A stretch of 6,547 nt of DNA from Actinomycetes bacterium (lineage in GTDB: Bacteria; Actinomycetota; Acidimicrobiia; Acidimicrobiales; RAAP-2). The position numbers were made by a program, and so were the translations under genes. Of the stretch, positions 1 through 6,547 are shown piece after piece; position 1 is the first letter of the stretch; each line of letters opens with the position of its first letter. The DNA is taken from NCBI GenBank assembly GCA_021826655.1, contig JAKAZC010000161.1, positions 1-6,547 on the forward strand, read 5' to 3'. The notes beneath the pieces were generated by a model. The model saw only the letters and a list, made by a program, of their open reading frames with translations, did not search any database and was not told where the DNA came from.

Positions 1-317
1 AGCACGCCAACAAGGTGGCCACCCGGGTGGAGTTGCGGTTCGACGTGGCCGGCTCGCCCTCGCTCGGGCCACACCAGCGGTCACGTCTGCTCGAGCGGTT
101 GGGTCCCGAGGTCCGGGTGGTGGCCGACGACGAGCGGTCGCAGCTCCGGAACCGGCAACGTGCGGTCGAGCGGCTCGGCGAGCGGTTGGCCGACGCGCTG
201 CGGGTGGAGAAGGTCCGACGGCCGACACGGCCCTCGCGGGGCGCCAAGGAGCGACGGCTGGCCGACAAACGACGGCTGTCCGAACGGAAGCGGGCGCGGC
301 GTCCCGACGACGACTGA
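1..317 (+). CDS. arfB: ArfB-type peptidyl-tRNA hydrolase (ribosome rescue), 5' partial
   Basis: This is the C-terminal part of an ArfB/YaeJ-family protein, a codon-independent release factor that enters stalled ribosomes and hydrolyses peptidyl-tRNA. The first two bases (AG) are the end of a Gln codon, and the next codons read HANKVATRVELRFDV. This matches the stretch after the catalytic GGQ in the family (GGQHxNK), so the catalytic glycines lie just outside the window. A VRVVADDERSQLRNR segment follows, then a long Arg/Lys-rich tail (RRPTRPSRGAKERRLADKRR...). In this family the tail lies in the empty mRNA channel, which separates ArfB from the longer release factors RF1 and RF2. The protein ends RRPDDD at TGA 315-317. 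About 104 residues are present of a usual length near 140. The last codons form one arm of the hairpin at 300-342. The identification is firm; only the missing 5' end limits it. Confidence 0.93.
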   Translation, partial: HANKVATRVELRFDVAGSPSLGPHQRSRLLERLGPEVRVVADDERSQLRNRQRAVERLGERLADALRVEKVRRPTRPSRGAKERRLADKRRLSERKRARRPDDD

Positions 318-342
318 CCGACGGGCGGTCGTCGTCGGGACG
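300..342. terminator. 15-bp stem-loop, likely bidirectional terminator
   Basis: CGTCCCGACGACGAC (300-314) pairs perfectly with GTCGTCGTCGGGACG (328-342) around a 13-base loop. The left arm encodes the last residues of ArfB and the loop begins with its TGA stop. The hairpin lies between two convergent genes and ends 10 bases from the stop of the minus-strand hydrolase. There is no T-run on either side, which is common for terminators of high-GC actinobacteria. A second, smaller stem (CCGGCT 345-350 with AGCCGG 354-359) overlaps the hydrolase stop codon. Confidence 0.6.
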
Positions 343-351
343 GACCGGCTC

Positions 352-1290
352 TCAGCCGGCCCGACGGGCGCGGTGCACCGGCGGGGACCACGCGGTGTCG
401 AGCAGCCCGTTGATCTCCTCGGTGAGGCGCTCGGGGTGGACGCGGAGCTCGAGGACCGAGCTGGCCTGGATGAGCTGACCGCGAGGTAGGCGGCGGGCGA
501 GCTGCTGGGCATCGTGGAACGGGTGCACGTGGTCGACCTTGTGACCGATTACCAGCGCAGGCACGTCCATCGCCGCGCGCTGGTCGACGGTCGGGGCGAT
601 CGGCCCGGCCAGGATCCCGTGCAGGACGGCTGCCGTCTCGCGGGGCTCGGCCGAGAACATGTTCATGACGCTGTCGAGCGGGCCGTTGCCGGTACGTGGC
701 AGGACTCGGAAGGCCCGGGCCACCCAGCCGACGAGGGGTCGGGCGAAGTGGGTGGCGAGGAGCATCGGGACGAAGGTGATCGCAGCGGCCGGAAGTGCCC
801 ACTCGAGGACCGGCATCTCGATCACCAGGCCTCGGACCCGCTCGGGTGCCTGGGCGGCCACGAGGAGGCTGACGTTGCCACCGAGGGAGACACCGCCCAC
901 CACGGCCTCCTCGACGTCGAGGTGGTCCATCAGGGCGATCACGTGTCCGGCGTAGGTGTCCATGCGGTGGTAGGAGGCCCGTTGCGGCCGGGCAGAGAGC
1001 CCGTGACCCGGGAGGTCGAGCAGGACGACCCGGTTGCCCTTGGCCGCCAGGTCGGCGGCGAGCCTCCGGTTCATGTTGGCGTCCATCAGGATTCCGTGCA
1101 GGAAGATCAGGACCCGGGGGCCCTGTCCGTGGACCTCGTAGTACAGCTCGAGGTCGTCGTGGACGAACTGCCCGACCTCGAAGGGCGCCACCGGACCCGG
1201 CTTGTCGTCGGGGAGGTCCCGGGGTGCCCGGAGCACCCGAGACGGCTTCGCCTGCGCCCGTTCAGTTCGCGGTGCCCCGGTCGTCGCCAT
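352..1290 (-). CDS. alpha/beta hydrolase (function unassigned)
   Basis: A 312-residue alpha/beta-hydrolase-fold protein. Visible elements in order are: an N-terminal extension of about 40 residues rich in charge and proline; the oxyanion-region HG in IFLHGILMDAN (about 62-72); LLDLPGHGLSA (90-100); the nucleophile elbow GGVSLGG with Ser135; a hydrophobic cap region (about 160-195); and the acid strand ALVIGHKVDHVHP with Asp253. The expected catalytic His is not in its normal place: the C-terminal segment reads ASSVLELRVHPERLTEEI, and the only nearby His (285) directly precedes the PE. I chose ATG 1290 because the reading frame upstream of it does not resemble the family and is antisense-like low-complexity sequence. 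The start lies 29 bases inside the end of the upstream amidase gene, so the two are probably co-transcribed and translationally coupled. The substrate cannot be inferred. It could be an esterase or lipase-like enzyme, or a non-hydrolytic member of the fold. Confidence 0.85.
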   Translation of the reverse strand: MATTGAPRTERAQAKPSRVLRAPRDLPDDKPGPVAPFEVGQFVHDDLELYYEVHGQGPRVLIFLHGILMDANMNRRLAADLAAKGNRVVLLDLPGHGLSARPQRASYHRMDTYAGHVIALMDHLDVEEAVVGGVSLGGNVSLLVAAQAPERVRGLVIEMPVLEWALPAAAITFVPMLLATHFARPLVGWVARAFRVLPRTGNGPLDSVMNMFSAEPRETAAVLHGILAGPIAPTVDQRAAMDVPALVIGHKVDHVHPFHDAQQLARRLPRGQLIQASSVLELRVHPERLTEEINGLLDTAWSPPVHRARRAG

Positions 1291-2131
1291 GCAGCCCACG
1301 GTACGCCGCGGGCTGGCGGTTCGCCAGCACCGGCAGTCGGTCGCGCACGTCGCCGAGGAACCCGAGATCGAGGTCGGCGACGACGATCCCGGGGGTCGGT
1401 TCCGTGCGCTCGGCCAGGACGACACCCCACGGGTCGACGATCATCGAGTGGCCGTGTGCCCGGGGCATCCCTGTGGGGAGCCGGCCAACCTGGCCAGCCC
1501 CGATGACGAACACCTGGTCCTCTACGGCCCGGGCCCGCACCAGGAGTTCCCAGTGGGCCGGCCCCGTCGTCGAGGTGAACGCAGCCGGCACGGCGACGAC
1601 GGTGGCACCACCGAGCGCGAGCATCCGGTAGAGCTCGGGGAACCGGACGTCGTAGCAGAGGGACAGACCGAGCACCGGCCCCGGCCGGCCGCCTTCGGCC
1701 GGGCCGAGCGGGACCACGCACACCTCCCGTCCGGGGGCGATGGTGTCCGATTCCCGGGATGCGACGCCCCGGAGCGACACGTCGAACAGGTGGATCTTCC
1801 GGTACACCGCCAGGAGGGTGCCGTCGGGTCCGACGAGACAGCTCGTATTGGACAGCCGCCCGTCGTCCCCCGGCACCGCCTCGGGGAAGCTGCCGGCGAC
1901 CAGGTGGATCCCGAGGCGGACCGCGAGCGCCGCCGCCCACGTCACGGTCGGGCCGTCGAGCGCCTCGGCGGCGGCGCGCAGCACTTTGGGCGAGCCGGCC
2001 ACCGAGAAGTACTCCGGGAGTACGACCAGCCCGGCGCCGGCCCCGGCTGCCTCCTCGACCAGCGCGGCCGTCGCGACGAGATTGGCGTCGCGGTTCGTAC
2101 CGGCCGTGGTCTGGATGGCGGCGGCGCGCAT
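1262..2131 (-). CDS. Nit1/Nit2-like carbon-nitrogen hydrolase (amidase)
   Basis: A 289-residue nitrilase-superfamily amidase with the full Glu-Lys-Cys triad: Glu40 in LVVLPEYF, Lys112 in VYRKIHLFD and Cys159 in LSLCYDVRFPEL. Three further blocks are characteristic of the Nit1/Nit2 branch: GPAHWELLVRARAVEDQVFV (from about 190), GHSMIVDPWGVV (from about 227), and a terminal LPVLANRQPAAYRG comparable to the LPVFxHRRPDLYG of Nit1. Known Nit1 proteins hydrolyse deaminated glutathione and Nit2 proteins are omega-amidases for alpha-ketoglutaramate and related compounds. Both are metabolite-repair roles in the cytosol. Many actinobacteria lack glutathione, so the actual substrate is open and could be another thiol-derived or omega-amide compound. 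ATG 2131 gives the typical MRAAAIQ N-terminus; there is no obvious Shine-Dalgarno before it. The gene is divergent from the hydrolase at 2220 and overlaps the downstream hydrolase by 29 bases. Confidence 0.9.
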   Translation of the reverse strand: MRAAAIQTTAGTNRDANLVATAALVEEAAGAGAGLVVLPEYFSVAGSPKVLRAAAEALDGPTVTWAAALAVRLGIHLVAGSFPEAVPGDDGRLSNTSCLVGPDGTLLAVYRKIHLFDVSLRGVASRESDTIAPGREVCVVPLGPAEGGRPGPVLGLSLCYDVRFPELYRMLALGGATVVAVPAAFTSTTGPAHWELLVRARAVEDQVFVIGAGQVGRLPTGMPRAHGHSMIVDPWGVVLAERTEPTPGIVVADLDLGFLGDVRDRLPVLANRQPAAYRGLHGDDRGTAN

Positions 2132-2142
2132 GCCACAGGGTA
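2132..2142 (-). promoter_or_regulatory. possible -10 box for a leaderless amidase transcript
   Basis: Read on the minus strand, TACCCT (2142-2137) fits the actinobacterial TANNNT -10 pattern and is followed after 5 bases by the ATG at 2131. No Shine-Dalgarno sequence is visible. This arrangement is what a leaderless mRNA would show. No convincing -35 hexamer is present and the spacing to the ATG is slightly short, so this is only a candidate. Confidence 0.25.
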
Positions 2143-2219
2143 GGTCGGGGATCGGGCACAATGACCCACGGCGGCGCCGACCCACCAGGTCCCGGCCGCC
2201 CTCCAGGGAAGAGAGCACC

Positions 2220-3449
2220 GTGTCCTTCGAAGACTCCGATGTGGTCCGCAGCGCCGTCCGGGTGGAGGGTTTCCGCGACGACGAGTTCAACTACCAGCTC
2301 ATCCGGGCCATGGGCATGGCCGACTACGGCGGCTCCTCGGTGGGCGAATGCCTGGCGGTCGTGGCCGAGATCACCGACGGCAGCCCCAGGAGCTGGACCC
2401 GAGGGTTCGAGCAATTGGCCCGACGGGTGGAGGGTCAGGGTCGGGCGTGCCTGGCCGCGGGGTGGGAGGTGAGCGGTAGGGACCTCCTCCTGCGGGCCTC
2501 GACCTACTACCGCACGGCCGAGTACTACGGGGGCGACGCGGGTGCGGATGGCGCCGGTGAGCGCAGTCGGGCCTGTTTCTCGGAGGCGGCCGCGTTGGTC
2601 CGGCCACCCGTCGAGCCCCTGGCGGTGCCCTTTGCCGGCGGGTTCCTGCCCGGCTACCTCGTGCGCCCGCTGGCCGACGGAGGAGACGCAGCGCCCCGAC
2701 CGACCGTCGTGGCCGTCGGCGGGTTCGACTCGAGCGCCGAGGAGCTCTATTTCCAGCTCGGGGTGCCGGGTGCCGAGCGGGGGTGGAACGTGGTCGTGTT
2801 CGACGGCCCGGGCCAGCTCGGGTGCATGCGCACCGAGCCGGCGATGACCTTCCGGCCGGACTACGAGGTACCGATCGCCGCAGTGCTGGATACGGTCGCC
2901 GGCATGCGTGGGGTCGACCCGGATCGCCTGGCGCTGTGCGGGCAGAGCTTCGGTTCCTATTTCGCCGCCCGTGCCGCGGCCACCGACGACCGGGTGCGGG
3001 CACTGGTTGCCAACCCGCCGGTCGTCGACATGGGGCGCTACATGGAGGCCTGGGTCGGTTCCGACGTCTACCGGATGATCCGGGACATCCGACCCGAGGA
3101 CGTCGCCGGCGTCCCCGAGGACCTGATGCCCCGCCAGATGCAGTGGGGGATCGAGGCCATCTGCACGCGGTTCGGGGTCCCGTCGTTCCACGCCTGGCGG
3201 GAGGCCTTGGCGTCGTACCGGCTCGGTGGGCTGACCGCCTCGATCACCTGTCCGGTACTGGCCCTGGTGGGTGAGCGGGAGGGCGAAGAGCCGCGTGCCC
3301 AGTTCGACGCGTTCGTCGCCGGCGTGGCGGGTAGCGTGACCACCCGGGTGTTCGGTCCCGCCGACGGAGCGTCGACCCACTGTCAGTCGGACAACCTCCG
3401 ACTATCGGCCCAGGTCACCTTCGACTGGTTGGCTTCCCGGCTGGCCTGA
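2220..3449 (+). CDS. FrsA/Ayg1/DHPON-hydrolase-type serine hydrolase
   Basis: A 409-residue two-part alpha/beta hydrolase. An N-terminal helical region (about 1-130, with ASTYYRTAEYY) precedes the catalytic core. The core shows the hallmark VGGFDSSAEELYF (Gly167-Gly168-Phe169-Asp170-Ser171), FDGPGQL, the nucleophile elbow CGQSFGSYFAA with Ser243, and the C-terminal GASTHCQSDNLRLS with His387. This combination is typical of the group containing FrsA, 2,6-dihydropseudooxynicotine hydrolase (a C-C bond hydrolase) and the fungal polyketide-shortening enzyme Ayg1. The acid position in the GxxDxxxP strand is occupied by Glu354 (GEREGEEP). The length agrees with the family (about 370-410). The start is GTG 2220, preceded by a purine-rich AGGGAAGAGAG at 2205-2215. 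In-frame sequence upstream is antisense to the amidase and unlike the family. No signal peptide is seen. The substrate is unknown; ester or C-C bond cleavage are both possible. Confidence 0.85.
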   Translation: MSFEDSDVVRSAVRVEGFRDDEFNYQLIRAMGMADYGGSSVGECLAVVAEITDGSPRSWTRGFEQLARRVEGQGRACLAAGWEVSGRDLLLRASTYYRTAEYYGGDAGADGAGERSRACFSEAAALVRPPVEPLAVPFAGGFLPGYLVRPLADGGDAAPRPTVVAVGGFDSSAEELYFQLGVPGAERGWNVVVFDGPGQLGCMRTEPAMTFRPDYEVPIAAVLDTVAGMRGVDPDRLALCGQSFGSYFAARAAATDDRVRALVANPPVVDMGRYMEAWVGSDVYRMIRDIRPEDVAGVPEDLMPRQMQWGIEAICTRFGVPSFHAWREALASYRLGGLTASITCPVLALVGEREGEEPRAQFDAFVAGVAGSVTTRVFGPADGASTHCQSDNLRLSAQVTFDWLASRLA

Positions 3450-3518
3450 GGGTGGCACGACCCGGGGCCATGCCGACCGCTTCGGTCCGCCCGCTCGTCC
3501 GGTAGCCGCCCGGTGCCG

Positions 3519-4367
3519 TCAGCCGGCGCGGGTGGCCAGGGCCGCGGCCAACGCGGAAGACCCTCCATCGGAGACGTTCTCGCGCACCCCGACGAGCGGA
3601 GTCACCGAGGCCCAGCCGTCCTCGACCAGGGCGGCGTCCGACCCCGGCTCGAGTTCGGCTCGTTCCGCCGGAGCGTCGGCGCCGGTCCCCATTCCCCGCA
3701 TGGCCAGCACGATGGCGCCGCCGGTGCGGTCGACCGCCGTCCCGTCGACCGGTAGCGCGGTGTGCTCCGGTCGTACCGAGCGGATGAGGCCGAGCCGGCC
3801 GAGTCTCCCGTGGCGCAGGCCCTTGAGTTCGTGGGGTCGGACGGCGGGCACATTGAGATTGAGCACCGTGGCCGCCTCGGCCTCGGCCAACACCGGCACC
3901 ATCCCACAGGCCAGTCCCACCGCCGTCTCCCAGTAGTCGGGATCGGAGGCCCAGGCGATGCTGACGGCGAGGCCCCGCACCCCGAACTGGGCACCGGTCA
4001 GCGCGGCGCCCACCGTGCCGGAATGCAGCGCGGACCGGCCGGCGTTCATCCCGTGATTGATCCCGGAGACAACCAGGTCGGGTCGCGGACCGAAGCCCTC
4101 GATGCAGCCGAGGATGACCGACAGGGCGGGCGAGCCGTCGATGCCGTACGTCGGGACGTCGGCCAGTCCAGGGATGTCCACGTGCTCGTAGGGGATCGAC
4201 TCTCGCTCGTAGACGGCGCCGACCGCGGCGCCTGCGCCGCTGTGGTCGGTGAGCGGGGCCACCACGAGCAGGTCGTGCTCGTCCCGGAAGGCCGCGTGGA
4301 GGCCCCGCGCCAAGGCGGCGATCCCCGGTGCGAACACACCGTCGTCGTTGGTGATCAGGATGCGCAT
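3519..4367 (-). CDS. surE: 5'/3'-nucleotidase SurE
   Basis: A 282-residue SurE-family metal-dependent phosphatase acting on nucleoside 5'- and 3'-monophosphates, and in some members on short polyphosphate. The N-terminus MRILITNDDGVFAPGI carries the metal-binding Asp8-Asp9. Ser43 lies in APLTDHSGAG, and Asn104 in VVSGINHGMNAG completes the usual site. HSGTVGAALTG, LNLNVP and GWASVTPL follow in family order. The protein is somewhat longer than the usual 250 or so residues. ATG 4367 is preferred because it gives the canonical MRIL start. An in-frame ATG at 4382 would add MESPV, and neither has a good Shine-Dalgarno, so the start is uncertain by five codons. The gene converges on the hydrolase ending at 3449 and is divergent from the epimerase at 4619. 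Confidence 0.92.
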   Translation of the reverse strand: MRILITNDDGVFAPGIAALARGLHAAFRDEHDLLVVAPLTDHSGAGAAVGAVYERESIPYEHVDIPGLADVPTYGIDGSPALSVILGCIEGFGPRPDLVVSGINHGMNAGRSALHSGTVGAALTGAQFGVRGLAVSIAWASDPDYWETAVGLACGMVPVLAEAEAATVLNLNVPAVRPHELKGLRHGRLGRLGLIRSVRPEHTALPVDGTAVDRTGGAIVLAMRGMGTGADAPAERAELEPGSDAALVEDGWASVTPLVGVRENVSDGGSSALAAALATRAG

Positions 4368-4471
4368 GACGGGGGATTCCATTCGTCGGCTGTCTCGTGG
4401 CGCCGGCGCGACTGGGGGCGCGTGGGCTCGTCGCGACAGGGTCTCGGCGGGCCGGTGCGGCCTCCTGGCCT

Positions 4472-4477
4472 ACCATA
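4472..4477 (-). promoter_or_regulatory. possible -10 box upstream of surE
   Basis: On the minus strand TATGGT (4477-4472) fits a TANNNT -10 element about 105 bases before the surE start, inside the 251-base divergent gap between surE and the epimerase. A perfect AGGAGG (4466-4461) follows closely but has no start codon at a useful distance, so it is not taken as a ribosome binding site. No clear -35 was found. I see no other feature in the gap. Confidence 0.2.
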
Positions 4478-4618
4478 CCGGGCGACGTCGACACCCGGAC
4501 GGTACACACCCCGACCCGCAGGTCGGCGGGACCGGGCCGCTCCAGGAGTCCCAAGCGGGCGCCCCGGTGGGCGACCCGGAACCGGAACCCCCCCCGACGA
4601 GGAACCAGGCCCCACCAC

Positions 4619-5572
4619 ATGACCGCTCCCACCCCACCGCCCGACCAGCGACCCGCCCAGACCACCGCCGCCACAGGAGACCAGTGGGTCATCGGCCACG
4701 GACACCAACGTGCGATCGTCACCGAAGCGGGTGCCACCCTTCGGTCGTTCGCCGTCCGTGACCGTCCTGTCGTCGAAGGGTTCGGCCCCGAGGAGTGGAG
4801 CCATGGCGGACGGGGCCAGATCCTCGCCCCCTGGCCCAACCGCCTGGGCGACGGCGCCTACAGCTTCGAGGGAGTGACCGCCCAGGCGCCTCTCAACGAG
4901 GTCGACCGGCGCACCGCCATCCACGGACTGGTCCGGTGGCTGCCGTGGCGCCTCACGGGCAGGGCCCAGAACCGGGTGGGGCTGAGCTGCGAGCTCCGAC
5001 CGTCGCCGGCCTATCCGTTCTCCCTCCGCCTGGAGGTCGAGTACCGCCTCGGACGCGAAGGACTCACCGTGTCGACCGACGCCCAGAACATCGGGACGGG
5101 GGACTTGCCCTTCGGACTGGGATTCCACCCCTACCTGACCGTCGGTACCACCTCGATCGACCAGGCCAGGCTGCGGATACGGGCGGGCCGGAGGCTCGTG
5201 ACCGACGACCGGGGCCTGCCCACGGGTTCGGTCGCCGTGGCCGGCACCGAGTACGACTTCACCGCGGGCCGACCGGTCGGGGTGACCCGCATGGACTCCG
5301 CCTTCTGCGAACTCGTCCGCGACGGCGACGGTCGGGCATGGGTGGACCTCGACCACCCGGACGGCGAAGCCGGGGTGTCCCTGTGGGTTGACCGACGGTT
5401 CGACTACCTGATGGTGTTCACCGGAGACACGCTCGCGCCCGGCACGCGTCGCTCCGCCCTCGCCGTCGAACCCATGACCTGCCCGCCCGACGCATTCCGC
5501 TCGGGGGCCGACGTGGTGGTGCTCCGGCCCGGCGTCCGCTGGACCGGGTCGTGGGGCATCAGCCCGCGCTGA
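4619..5572 (+). CDS. aldose 1-epimerase family protein (mutarotase-like)
   Basis: A 317-residue galactose-mutarotase-fold protein. Aldose 1-epimerases interconvert the alpha and beta anomers of hexoses in the cytosol; a general-acid His and a general-base Glu do the chemistry. The expected sites are all visible: LAPWPNRLGDGAYSFEG with Asn74-Arg75, AIHGLVRW with His102, FGLGFHPYL with His170 (the likely acid), and LAVEPMTCPPDAF with Glu284 (the likely base). The protein ends in VVLRPGVRWTGSWGI, as is typical for the actinobacterial branch. ATG 4619 leaves a proline/threonine-rich leader of about 20 residues before the first strand (QWVIGHGHQRAIVTEAGA). A GAGGAA lies at 4599-4604, rather far from the ATG. 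The gene is divergent from surE and followed by non-coding DNA, so it is probably transcribed alone. The preferred sugar cannot be read from the sequence. Confidence 0.9.
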   Translation: MTAPTPPPDQRPAQTTAATGDQWVIGHGHQRAIVTEAGATLRSFAVRDRPVVEGFGPEEWSHGGRGQILAPWPNRLGDGAYSFEGVTAQAPLNEVDRRTAIHGLVRWLPWRLTGRAQNRVGLSCELRPSPAYPFSLRLEVEYRLGREGLTVSTDAQNIGTGDLPFGLGFHPYLTVGTTSIDQARLRIRAGRRLVTDDRGLPTGSVAVAGTEYDFTAGRPVGVTRMDSAFCELVRDGDGRAWVDLDHPDGEAGVSLWVDRRFDYLMVFTGDTLAPGTRRSALAVEPMTCPPDAFRSGADVVVLRPGVRWTGSWGISPR

Positions 5573-5596: not shown

Positions 5597-5702
5597 GACT
5601 CCTTCGTTGACTCCTGCGTGGTGCCCTGCCGACTCCTGCGTGGTGCCCTGCCGACTCCGGCGTGGTGCCCTGCCGACTCCGGCGTGGTGCCCTGCCGACT
5701 CC
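5597..5702. repeat. 22-bp tandem repeat, four full units plus degenerate ends
   Basis: Four contiguous 22-base units start at 5609, 5631, 5653 and 5675 (last base 5696). Each reads GACTCC, then T or G, then GCGTGGTGCCCTGCC. Units 1 and 2 are identical with T at position 7. Units 3 and 4 are identical with G there. A degenerate 12-base half unit (GACTCCTTCGTT, 5597-5608) precedes the array and a GACTCCG remnant (5697-5703) follows. There are no spacers. The period is not a multiple of three, and translations of both strands look random, so the array is non-coding. It begins about 25 bases after the epimerase stop codon. Confidence 0.9.
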
Positions 5703-5703
5703 G

Positions 5704-6058: not shown

Positions 6059-6063
6059 TGGGG

Positions 6064-6110
6064 TGCGCCCCCTGGGATTCGAACCCAGAACCTGCGGATT
6101 AAGAGTCCAC
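6064..6110 (-). pseudogene. truncated tRNA-Lys(CUU), 3' portion; probable attachment-site remnant
   Basis: On the minus strand, 47 bases correspond to tRNA positions 27-73. The anticodon stem GTGGA/TCCGC (one G-U pair) closes the loop CTCTTAA with anticodon CTT (Lys). A 5-base variable loop AGGTT follows, then the T arm CTGGG-TTCGAAT-CCCAG, the 3' acceptor strand GGGGCGC and the discriminator A. The genome continues CCCCA, so CCA is not clearly encoded. The 26 bases that should hold the 5' acceptor strand (expected to pair as GCGCCCC) and the D arm show neither, nor the conserved TAGCTC...GG...AGAGC pattern. The piece cannot make a functional tRNA. The break at the 5' side of the anticodon arm is the classic edge of a tyrosine-recombinase attachment core within a tRNA gene. 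The fragment's 3' end faces the chromosomal genes on the left, which places the inserted DNA to the right. Confidence 0.85.
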
Positions 6111-6213
6111 CCGATGTCGTGGCGTCGCCCCCGCCTGTTTGCGTGCTCCCTGGTCAGGTCGGGAGTCGCTGCTCGGTTCGTCTGCTCTGCCCCGGCCAGT
6201 TCGGGCCATCCCG

Positions 6214-6219
6214 TAGAGT
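6214..6219 (+). promoter_or_regulatory. possible -10 box for the small gene
   Basis: TAGAGT fits the TANNNT pattern and would place transcription start at about 6226, inside the first GTTGACAA copy and about 30 bases before the GTG at 6255. No -35 hexamer is visible 16-18 bases upstream. If real, the GTTGACAA pair would overlap the start of the transcript, as a repressor operator often does. Confidence 0.25.
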
Positions 6220-6222
6220 CCC

Positions 6223-6242
6223 GTTGACAAATCGGTTGACAA
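6223..6242. repeat. direct repeat of GTTGACAA, 12-base period
   Basis: Two identical copies of GTTGACAA lie at 6223-6230 and 6235-6242, separated by ATCG. The second touches the ribosome binding site of the small gene at 6255. The arrangement suggests a protein-binding site, either an operator over the 5' untranslated region of that gene or a recombinase arm site near the att remnant. Although TTGACA is the -35 consensus, neither copy has a -10 box at the right distance. Confidence 0.5.
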
Positions 6243-6254
6243 GGGAGGCGTCAC

Positions 6255-6455
6255 GTGGCGGAGGAAGATGAGTTCTGGACGGAGATAGTCGCGTGGCCCG
6301 ATGGAGCGCAGGGCGCAGTAGTCGCCCGGCCTTTCCGAGTCGACGCCGACGGCGCTCGTTGGGAGTACGTCGGGAGGGATGACCTGCGGGTGCTGCCGGA
6401 AGGAATGGTCGGTGGTGTCGTCTACATCTACCGACGAGTGAGGTCGAAGGAGTAG
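6255..6455 (+). CDS. small protein of unknown function (66 residues)
   Basis: I do not recognise this protein. It is 66 residues long, starting at GTG 6255 with a strong Shine-Dalgarno GGGAGG (6243-6248) six bases upstream, and ending at TAG 6453-6455. The N-terminus is acidic (AEEDEFWTEI), the middle contains VVARPFRVDADGARWEYVGRDDLRVLPEG, and the C-terminus is hydrophobic then basic (VGGVVYIYRRVRSKE). The alternating hydrophobic and polar residues suggest a small beta-rich fold; no membrane segment or known motif is seen. By hand count 48 of 66 codons end in G or C, and it uses ATA, GTA, three CGA and two AGG codons. The first 45 codons of the hydrolase at 2220 have 41 ending in G or C. This fits horizontally acquired DNA to the right of the tRNA fragment. 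A stem-loop follows 24 bases after the stop codon. Confidence 0.72.
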   Translation: MAEEDEFWTEIVAWPDGAQGAVVARPFRVDADGARWEYVGRDDLRVLPEGMVGGVVYIYRRVRSKE

Positions 6456-6479: not shown

Positions 6480-6518
6480 CCGCCCTCGATTGCTCACGTG
6501 CCCCTCAATCGAGGGCGG
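6480..6518. terminator. 13-bp stem-loop downstream of the small gene
   Basis: CCGCCCTCGATTG (6480-6492) pairs perfectly with CAATCGAGGGCGG (6506-6518) around a 13-base loop (CTCACGTGCCCCT) that itself contains the palindrome CACGTG. It starts 24 bases after the stop codon of the small gene. There is no T-run, so it would be an actinobacterial-type terminator. It may act in both directions, depending on what lies beyond the window. Confidence 0.6.
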
Positions 6519-6547
6519 TGGGGATTGGGTGCCGAGCCCGGAGCACG

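Follow-up and report, generated by a model that had tools for sequence, protein, structure and literature searches.

Integrative elements and prophages of actinobacteria commonly insert, through tyrosine integrases, into the 3' half of a tRNA gene, with an intact tRNA at one end and a 3' fragment at the other, and the present locus raises the question of whether a truncated tRNA-Lys(CTT) gene lying close to the end of the sequence marks such a junction, and what can be said of the element when barely any of it is visible. The window, meaning here the whole stretch of 6,547 bp that was analysed, was compared with genomes of relatives, viral contigs, phage records and plasmids.

Chromosomal side of the junction

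Six genes occupy bases 3-5572 of the window, encoding an RF-1-like protein, an alpha/beta hydrolase, a carbon-nitrogen hydrolase, a FrsA-like esterase, SurE and an aldose 1-epimerase, the first of these products resembling the RF-1 domain at 34.1 bits, below the cut-off of 35. The epimerase gene (4619..5572, plus strand; PF01263, E 5.9e-47) is the last chromosomal gene before the junction, and a search for it in viral contigs returned no match. The closest relative found, an Acidimicrobiales genome (L001), contains six of the six genes in the same order, with protein identities of 81-91% (84% for the syntenic epimerase), in agreement with the sequence-only reading that the epimerase and surE side is old chromosome. 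In L001 an intact tRNA-Lys(CTT) on the minus strand starts about 0.18 kb past the epimerase, with tRNA-His(GTG) and tRNA-Arg(TCT) coming next; an intact gene of this kind, directly past the epimerase in a relative lacking the element, had been anticipated. The L001 locus is the empty site. At the same place the window retains the 3' part of tRNA-Lys alone (6062-6108), after which different DNA continues up to 6547. Since L001 shows the empty site, the last 439 bp of the window read as inserted DNA and the fragment as the displaced 3' half. Between the epimerase and the tRNA fragment, a 22-bp unit is repeated in tandem at 5609-5703 (4.3 copies, 98% match).

The tRNA-Lys fragment and the shared core

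The fragment (6062..6108, minus strand), which serves as att core as well as displaced fragment, comprises positions 29-73 of tRNA-Lys(CTT) plus two bases, its limits being tRNA position 29 and two bases of the CC end. With cmscan a tRNA was reported at 6125-6064 (minus strand) with 27.5 bits against a gathering score of 29, much of its 5' half fitting poorly, and ARAGORN found no complete tRNA in the window. The 47-mer is identical in the intact tRNA-Lys(CTT) genes of G002, G003, G010, G011, G012, G019 and G031 (47/47, E 2e-18), and once it is lengthened by one base at either end it has zero matches among the loci compared. Complete over 47 bases and lying where relatives keep the intact gene, this identity is not a chance match; against the tRNA-Lys of L001 the core shows 90% identity. 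The cmscan match and the 47/47 identity together establish the truncated tRNA-Lys(CTT) that the sequence-only reading had reported, in the right position, with the difference that the exact block is 6062-6108 and not 6064-6110. The core that it had put at about 45 bases measures 47 bp against the relatives' intact genes.

The anticodon lies at 6101-6103, read on the minus strand, and the anticodon loop as read from the sequence at 6099..6105 (minus strand), the presumed overlap region of strand exchange. At this single junction the core takes in the whole loop and stops three bases past it, as would be expected if the crossover were in the loop. The G-U pair of the anticodon stem (tRNA positions 28-42), earlier suggested to mark the core edge, does so: identity ends just before one of its partners, 6109 (position 28). 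At the other end, 6061 is G, with T in the intact genes of L001, L003, L010, L014 and L019, so the encoded CCA end was lost in the window fragment, which reads CCC, a change fitting relaxed selection on a displaced fragment.

Probable element DNA to the right of the junction

Element DNA is visible over 439 bp, up to the window end at 6547. Its first stretch (6109..6222, plus strand) separates the core from a pair of direct repeats, beyond which a 66-codon ORF (6255..6455, plus strand) is the first possible gene of the element. This frame has a GTG start with GGGAGG ahead of it and a GC content by codon position of 0.76/0.45/0.73; it had no relative in viral contigs, and a protein search returned the 66-aa product itself alone. 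A 13-bp perfect hairpin (6480..6518; z-score -2.5) follows the ORF and is possibly a terminator, one that lacks a T run. The window contains neither an integrase nor a recognised phage gene nor an intact tRNA, its 66-codon frame has no relative, and the 439 bp gave zero matches among 50,697 phage records, all of which counts against an element. Searches of the same DNA against plasmids yielded nothing beyond one 30-base match (E 0.4), and those against the genomes of 22 relatives one good match, in G011:C50, and three weak ones (E 0.002-0.004). In the good match, window positions 6143-6243 align (101 bp, 75% identity, E 1.3e-10) with an arm adjoining a tRNA-Leu fragment; the best-conserved part is GTTGACAAATCGGTTGACAAG, a pair of 8-bp direct repeats with a 12-bp period.

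A direct-repeat pair beside the core

In the window these repeats are arranged as GTTGACAA-4 bp-GTTGACAA, the copies being identical to one another (6223..6242, plus strand; 6223-6230 and 6235-6242, 12-bp period), and they are the predicted arm-type binding sites of an integrase. Exact matches to GTTGACAAATNNGTTGACAAG were found at four places, namely the window, G011:C50, G461:C54 and the viral contig L149, and all four adjoin a tRNA fragment. Among five more places with 1-2 mismatches, G062:C334 adjoins a tRNA-Gln fragment and no tRNA fragment was found at the other four, a result that counts against the reading as an element end. The distance from core end to repeat is 114 bp in the window, 114 in G011, 113 in L149, 115 in G461 and 114 in G062, the four comparison elements having been chosen for possessing pair and fragment, with distance not a criterion; outside the window, two of the fragments so spaced (113-115 bp) are of tRNA-Leu and two of tRNA-Gln. 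Another case in tRNA-Lys is G127:C43 (L142), which has TGTTGACA at +118 from the loop, compared with +117 in the window.

Across 397 genomes of the order, the pattern and its reversed control each gave 2 matches, which counts against the reading as an element end; in 150 genomes the reversed control had 0 matches. Because the control matched equally often, the pattern is not enriched among the 397 genomes, and the weight of the GTTGACAA pair rests on its place beside tRNA fragments and not on its frequency. From position, symmetry and the kinship of the associated integrases, we infer that the pair represents integrase arm sites. A promoter role for the TTGACA within the repeats was considered and set aside, as the repeats occur on both arms of G461 and G011:C50 and no -10-like stretch was seen after them by eye.

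Other elements carrying the pair

A complete case, G461:C54, is a fully bounded, prophage-like element of 15.4 kb in tRNA-Gln(TTG), found in a genome of the order of G001. It extends from a tRNA-Gln fragment at 81562 to an intact tRNA-Gln at 96943-97018, which is overlapped by the frame of a tyrosine-type integrase (95724-97007, 427 aa) with a catalytic domain (PF00589), a SAM-like domain (SAM_3) and an arm-binding domain (Arm-DNA-bind_4). Its interior encodes a terminase large subunit, a primase/polymerase-like protein and a weakly matched repressor. No capsid protein was found among ten of its proteins scanned against PHROGs, so that the element could represent a satellite as well as a prophage or a defective prophage. 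The pair flanks the core on both sides, with period 12 on the far side and period 11 on the integrase side, where it lies inside the end of the integrase frame (L153 15368). G461:C54 resembles the window in its arm, GTTGACAAATCCGTTGACAAG at 115 bp, and in the tRNA position at which the core ends (core length 49 bp by our reading, compared with 47 bp in the window), and differs in its tRNA-Gln target and in being a complete element.

In G011:C50 a 3' fragment of tRNA-Leu(GAG) shares 87% identity, across 54 bp, with an intact tRNA-Leu located 4.4 kb away. GTTGACA repeats flank the core on both sides, the pair on the integrase side (L135 7636) having one mismatch. The viral contig L149 (IMGVR_UViG_3300037114_000291) is like the window in that its arm pair follows 113 bp past a tRNA-Leu(GAG) 3' fragment, and a phage capsid gene lies 2.7 kb farther along; it is unlike the window in its target, and its fragment was recognised by likeness to the G011 gene and not by cmscan. 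The same contig contains at 3421-4928 a serine recombinase frame (PF00239) which, with an overlapping second frame, reaches into the tRNA-Leu 3' fragment and adjoins WhiB and capsid genes.

Kin of the G461 integrase were searched at 30 loci from 12 genomes, and the pair, with at most two mismatches, was detected at six of the 30 (five places). These are G062:C338, where the integrase is 58% identical with two stops and lies beside tRNA-Pro; G015:C76 (49%, beside a tRNA-Leu-like stretch); G011:C90 (50-60%, no tRNA found); G022:C71 (33%, near tRNA-Met) and G062:C234 (27%, near tRNA-Arg). The pair was found neither in G004:C98 (integrase 43%) nor at the remaining kin loci, and no relatives of the G461 integrase were confirmed in viral contigs. 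The association between integrase kinship and arm sequence is therefore suggestive and not strict.

tRNA-Lys as a repeated insertion site

In the epimerase loci of relatives (L001-L041), ten have an intact tRNA-Lys(CTT) 0.2 to 8.5 kb past the epimerase. L040 has a fragment about 50 bp past it, cut just after the anticodon loop, at a place matching that in the window. Two decayed fragments are present in L011, the epimerase locus of G011; those of L009 and L039 are shorter and lie another 5 to 6 kb away, and the contig of L004 stops inside tRNA-Lys. The other loci of this set have no tRNA-Lys copy up to 10 kb or the contig end. Among the contigs examined for several copies, three (L137, L138 and L140) also have an intact tRNA-Lys, and in these the fragments lie on its 3' side. 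A pattern for the tRNA-Lys 3' half, allowing up to three mismatches, matched in 127 of 150 family genomes, with six to eight matches per genome in G141, G127 and G111, several within a few kb, which are probably arrays of elements or scars. Among the matches listed in a search of 24 genomes, G011, G013 and G009 have a PF00589 tyrosine integrase at a distance of about 0.65 kb from an intact tRNA-Lys, measured from its 3' end, and the spacing between integrase and a tRNA-Lys copy, perhaps intact, is the same in G096 and G087. This tRNA-Lys(CTT), beside tRNA-His and tRNA-Arg, is a repeatedly used insertion site in these actinobacteria.

The layout of the arm was analysed over 22 truncated and 48 intact tRNA-Lys copies gathered regardless of arms, 46 of the intact ones having enough flank to be scored. 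Nine loci found by arm pattern or similarity (L123, L144-L151) were excluded; in these, cmscan on 22.9 kb overlooked short fragments in L146, L148 and L149, a 321-base slice recovering that of L148, slices of L144, L145 and L147 gave no tRNA fragment, and L151 was assessed with ARAGORN and by eye alone. An unrelated ZMP/ZTP riboswitch is present in L145 (2864-2955, 50.7 bits). As the search pattern spans the anticodon loop, L009 and L039, which are cut earlier, and the strongly decayed first fragment of L011 were missed.

A direct repeat of at least 8 bp with period 12, located 80-125 bp past the loop, was present in 13 of the 22 truncated copies, the window counted, in one of the 46 intact copies and in 0.6% of random windows. 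The corresponding Fisher p value of 2e-7 (5e-7 minus the window) is indicative only, since the interval was chosen after a first look, and the cases are not independent, several fragments sharing one genome and some repeats being common. The repeat stands at 104-106 in nine of the 13 positive fragments; the nine fragments that have no period-12 pair count against the reading as an element end. On the other side, a period-11 pair was found in 4/46 intact and 2/22 truncated copies. The repeat sequences vary (TTATGGGAT, GTGTGGGATT, AATGAGGGATGT, GTTGACAA and others), some being common to several fragments. Pairs of a second arm type, TTATGGGAT, follow tRNA-Lys fragments in two genomes (L040 11038-11170; L097 1531-1660) and recur on the opposite side in L091 and L098.

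These observations admit a broader proposal, to which we give even weight for and against, that one family of temperate actinobacterial elements keeps a single arm code, the GTTGACAA pairs having a 12-bp period at about 114 bp from the core and an 11-bp period on the integrase side, as its target switches among tRNA-Lys, tRNA-Leu, tRNA-Gln and perhaps tRNA-Pro, and that element ends at tRNA-Lys in general combine a period-12 ruler about 104-118 bp past the loop with lineage-specific arm sequences. If true, the specificities of arm and core would be modules that evolve separately, and some 150 bp would be enough to type an element end in the absence of the integrase.

Interpretation of the junction

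The fragment is very probably the displaced-fragment-side junction of an integrated element. In the preferred reading this element, in all likelihood a temperate phage or an island derived from one, has a tyrosine integrase that uses the anticodon loop of tRNA-Lys(CTT) for recombination. The empty site of L001, the exact core and an arm whose repeat pair is spaced as in other such elements lend support to the earlier proposal that the fragment is the end of an element integrated in tRNA-Lys. The N-terminal arm domain of the integrase would bind the GTTGACAA pair and its catalytic domain the core, strand exchange presumably taking place inside 6099-6105. The 3' half brought in by the element itself would have rebuilt an intact tRNA-Lys at the right end, beyond the window, where the integrase gene is probably located, as in G461, G011, G013 and G009. 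That the fragment is a tRNA pseudogene, or a chance resemblance in which no integration took place, is scarcely credible: the cmscan score under the gathering threshold would favour it, against which stand the syntenic intact gene of L001, the sharply defined edge of the core, arm repeats spaced as in other elements and the parallel fragment in L040. A chimeric assembly, with chromosome fused to foreign DNA within a common 47-bp repeat, is very doubtful. The contigs of L004 and L107 do break in or beside tRNA-Lys, as at a repeat, and the window stops 439 bp past the junction; however, a chimera formed through the core needs an element with the same core, and the arm would then belong to such an element anyway.

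The element may be intact, defective, part of a tandem array or a scar. An element inserted long ago and mostly lost, leaving fragment and arm as a scar, seems fairly improbable. Scars do exist nearby, as in the 4.4-kb island of G011:C50, with its 87% tRNA-Leu fragment and an integrase piece alone (tblastn), and in the two degraded tRNA-Lys fragments at the G011 epimerase locus, and the loss of the encoded CCA end (6061 = G) points the same way, whereas a core still 47/47 with intact genes and arm repeats still identical to one another do not. It is unlikely, if worth keeping in view, that the window enters a tandem array or multi-element island at one tRNA, in which the next boundary to the right would be another fragment; 20 of the 150 family genomes have at least two matches to the 3'-half pattern, and neighbouring copies on the contigs examined are 0.8 to 11 kb apart, but some of the 20 carry second intact genes (G003, G014). 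With the junction of an integrated element as the preferred reading, the kind of insertion is itself ordinary and textbook, and what is new is the direct-repeat pair beside the core. A sequence that ends soon after a broken tRNA is still recognisable as an element junction, and the arm repeats let the integrase lineage be guessed.

Comparison with known systems

Among the titles listed, nothing on point was found on such elements in Acidimicrobiia or on arm/core modularity. According to excerpts of the Islander paper, tyrosine integrases leave a restored tRNA and a displaced fragment, and 2083 islands have anticodon-centred sites, one of two large classes (PMC4383910). Among the features of Islander class A, the window shows a displaced 3' fragment (47/47, seven relatives) and an empty site (L001).

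A viral counterpart, L081 (IMGVR_UViG_3300037755_000886), is like the window in its tRNA-Lys(CTT) core, which lies next to a tyrosine integrase and has period-12 and period-11 repeat pairs, one on each side, and is unlike it in its arm sequence, GAACGTGGGATG. At this att core of L081 (2900-2974) ARAGORN reports a complete tRNA-Lys(CTT), with a 5' half that looks unlike the relatives' genes; the call may be false, or the tRNA may be carried by the phage and overlap attP.

In the mycobacteriophages Pixie and Tweety attB lies in tRNA-Lys, the common core of Pixie being 47 bp, as stated in excerpts of their description (PMC3203893). Aligned with 46 of the 47 core bases in the window, the Pixie core shows 82.6% identity, tRNA-Lys genes of phages, e.g., that of Cosmo, matching the window core slightly better, and direct-repeat pairs flank the Pixie core on both sides. 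Its arm is TGGGTACAC, in contrast to GTTGACAA in the window, and its integrase starts at a distance of 155 bp from the core, on the flank equivalent to the window arm, where the window has the 66-codon frame, of no known family, and no integrase is seen. In target and layout, as far as these excerpts describe them, the window matches the Tweety and Pixie tRNA-Lys phages (PMC3203893).
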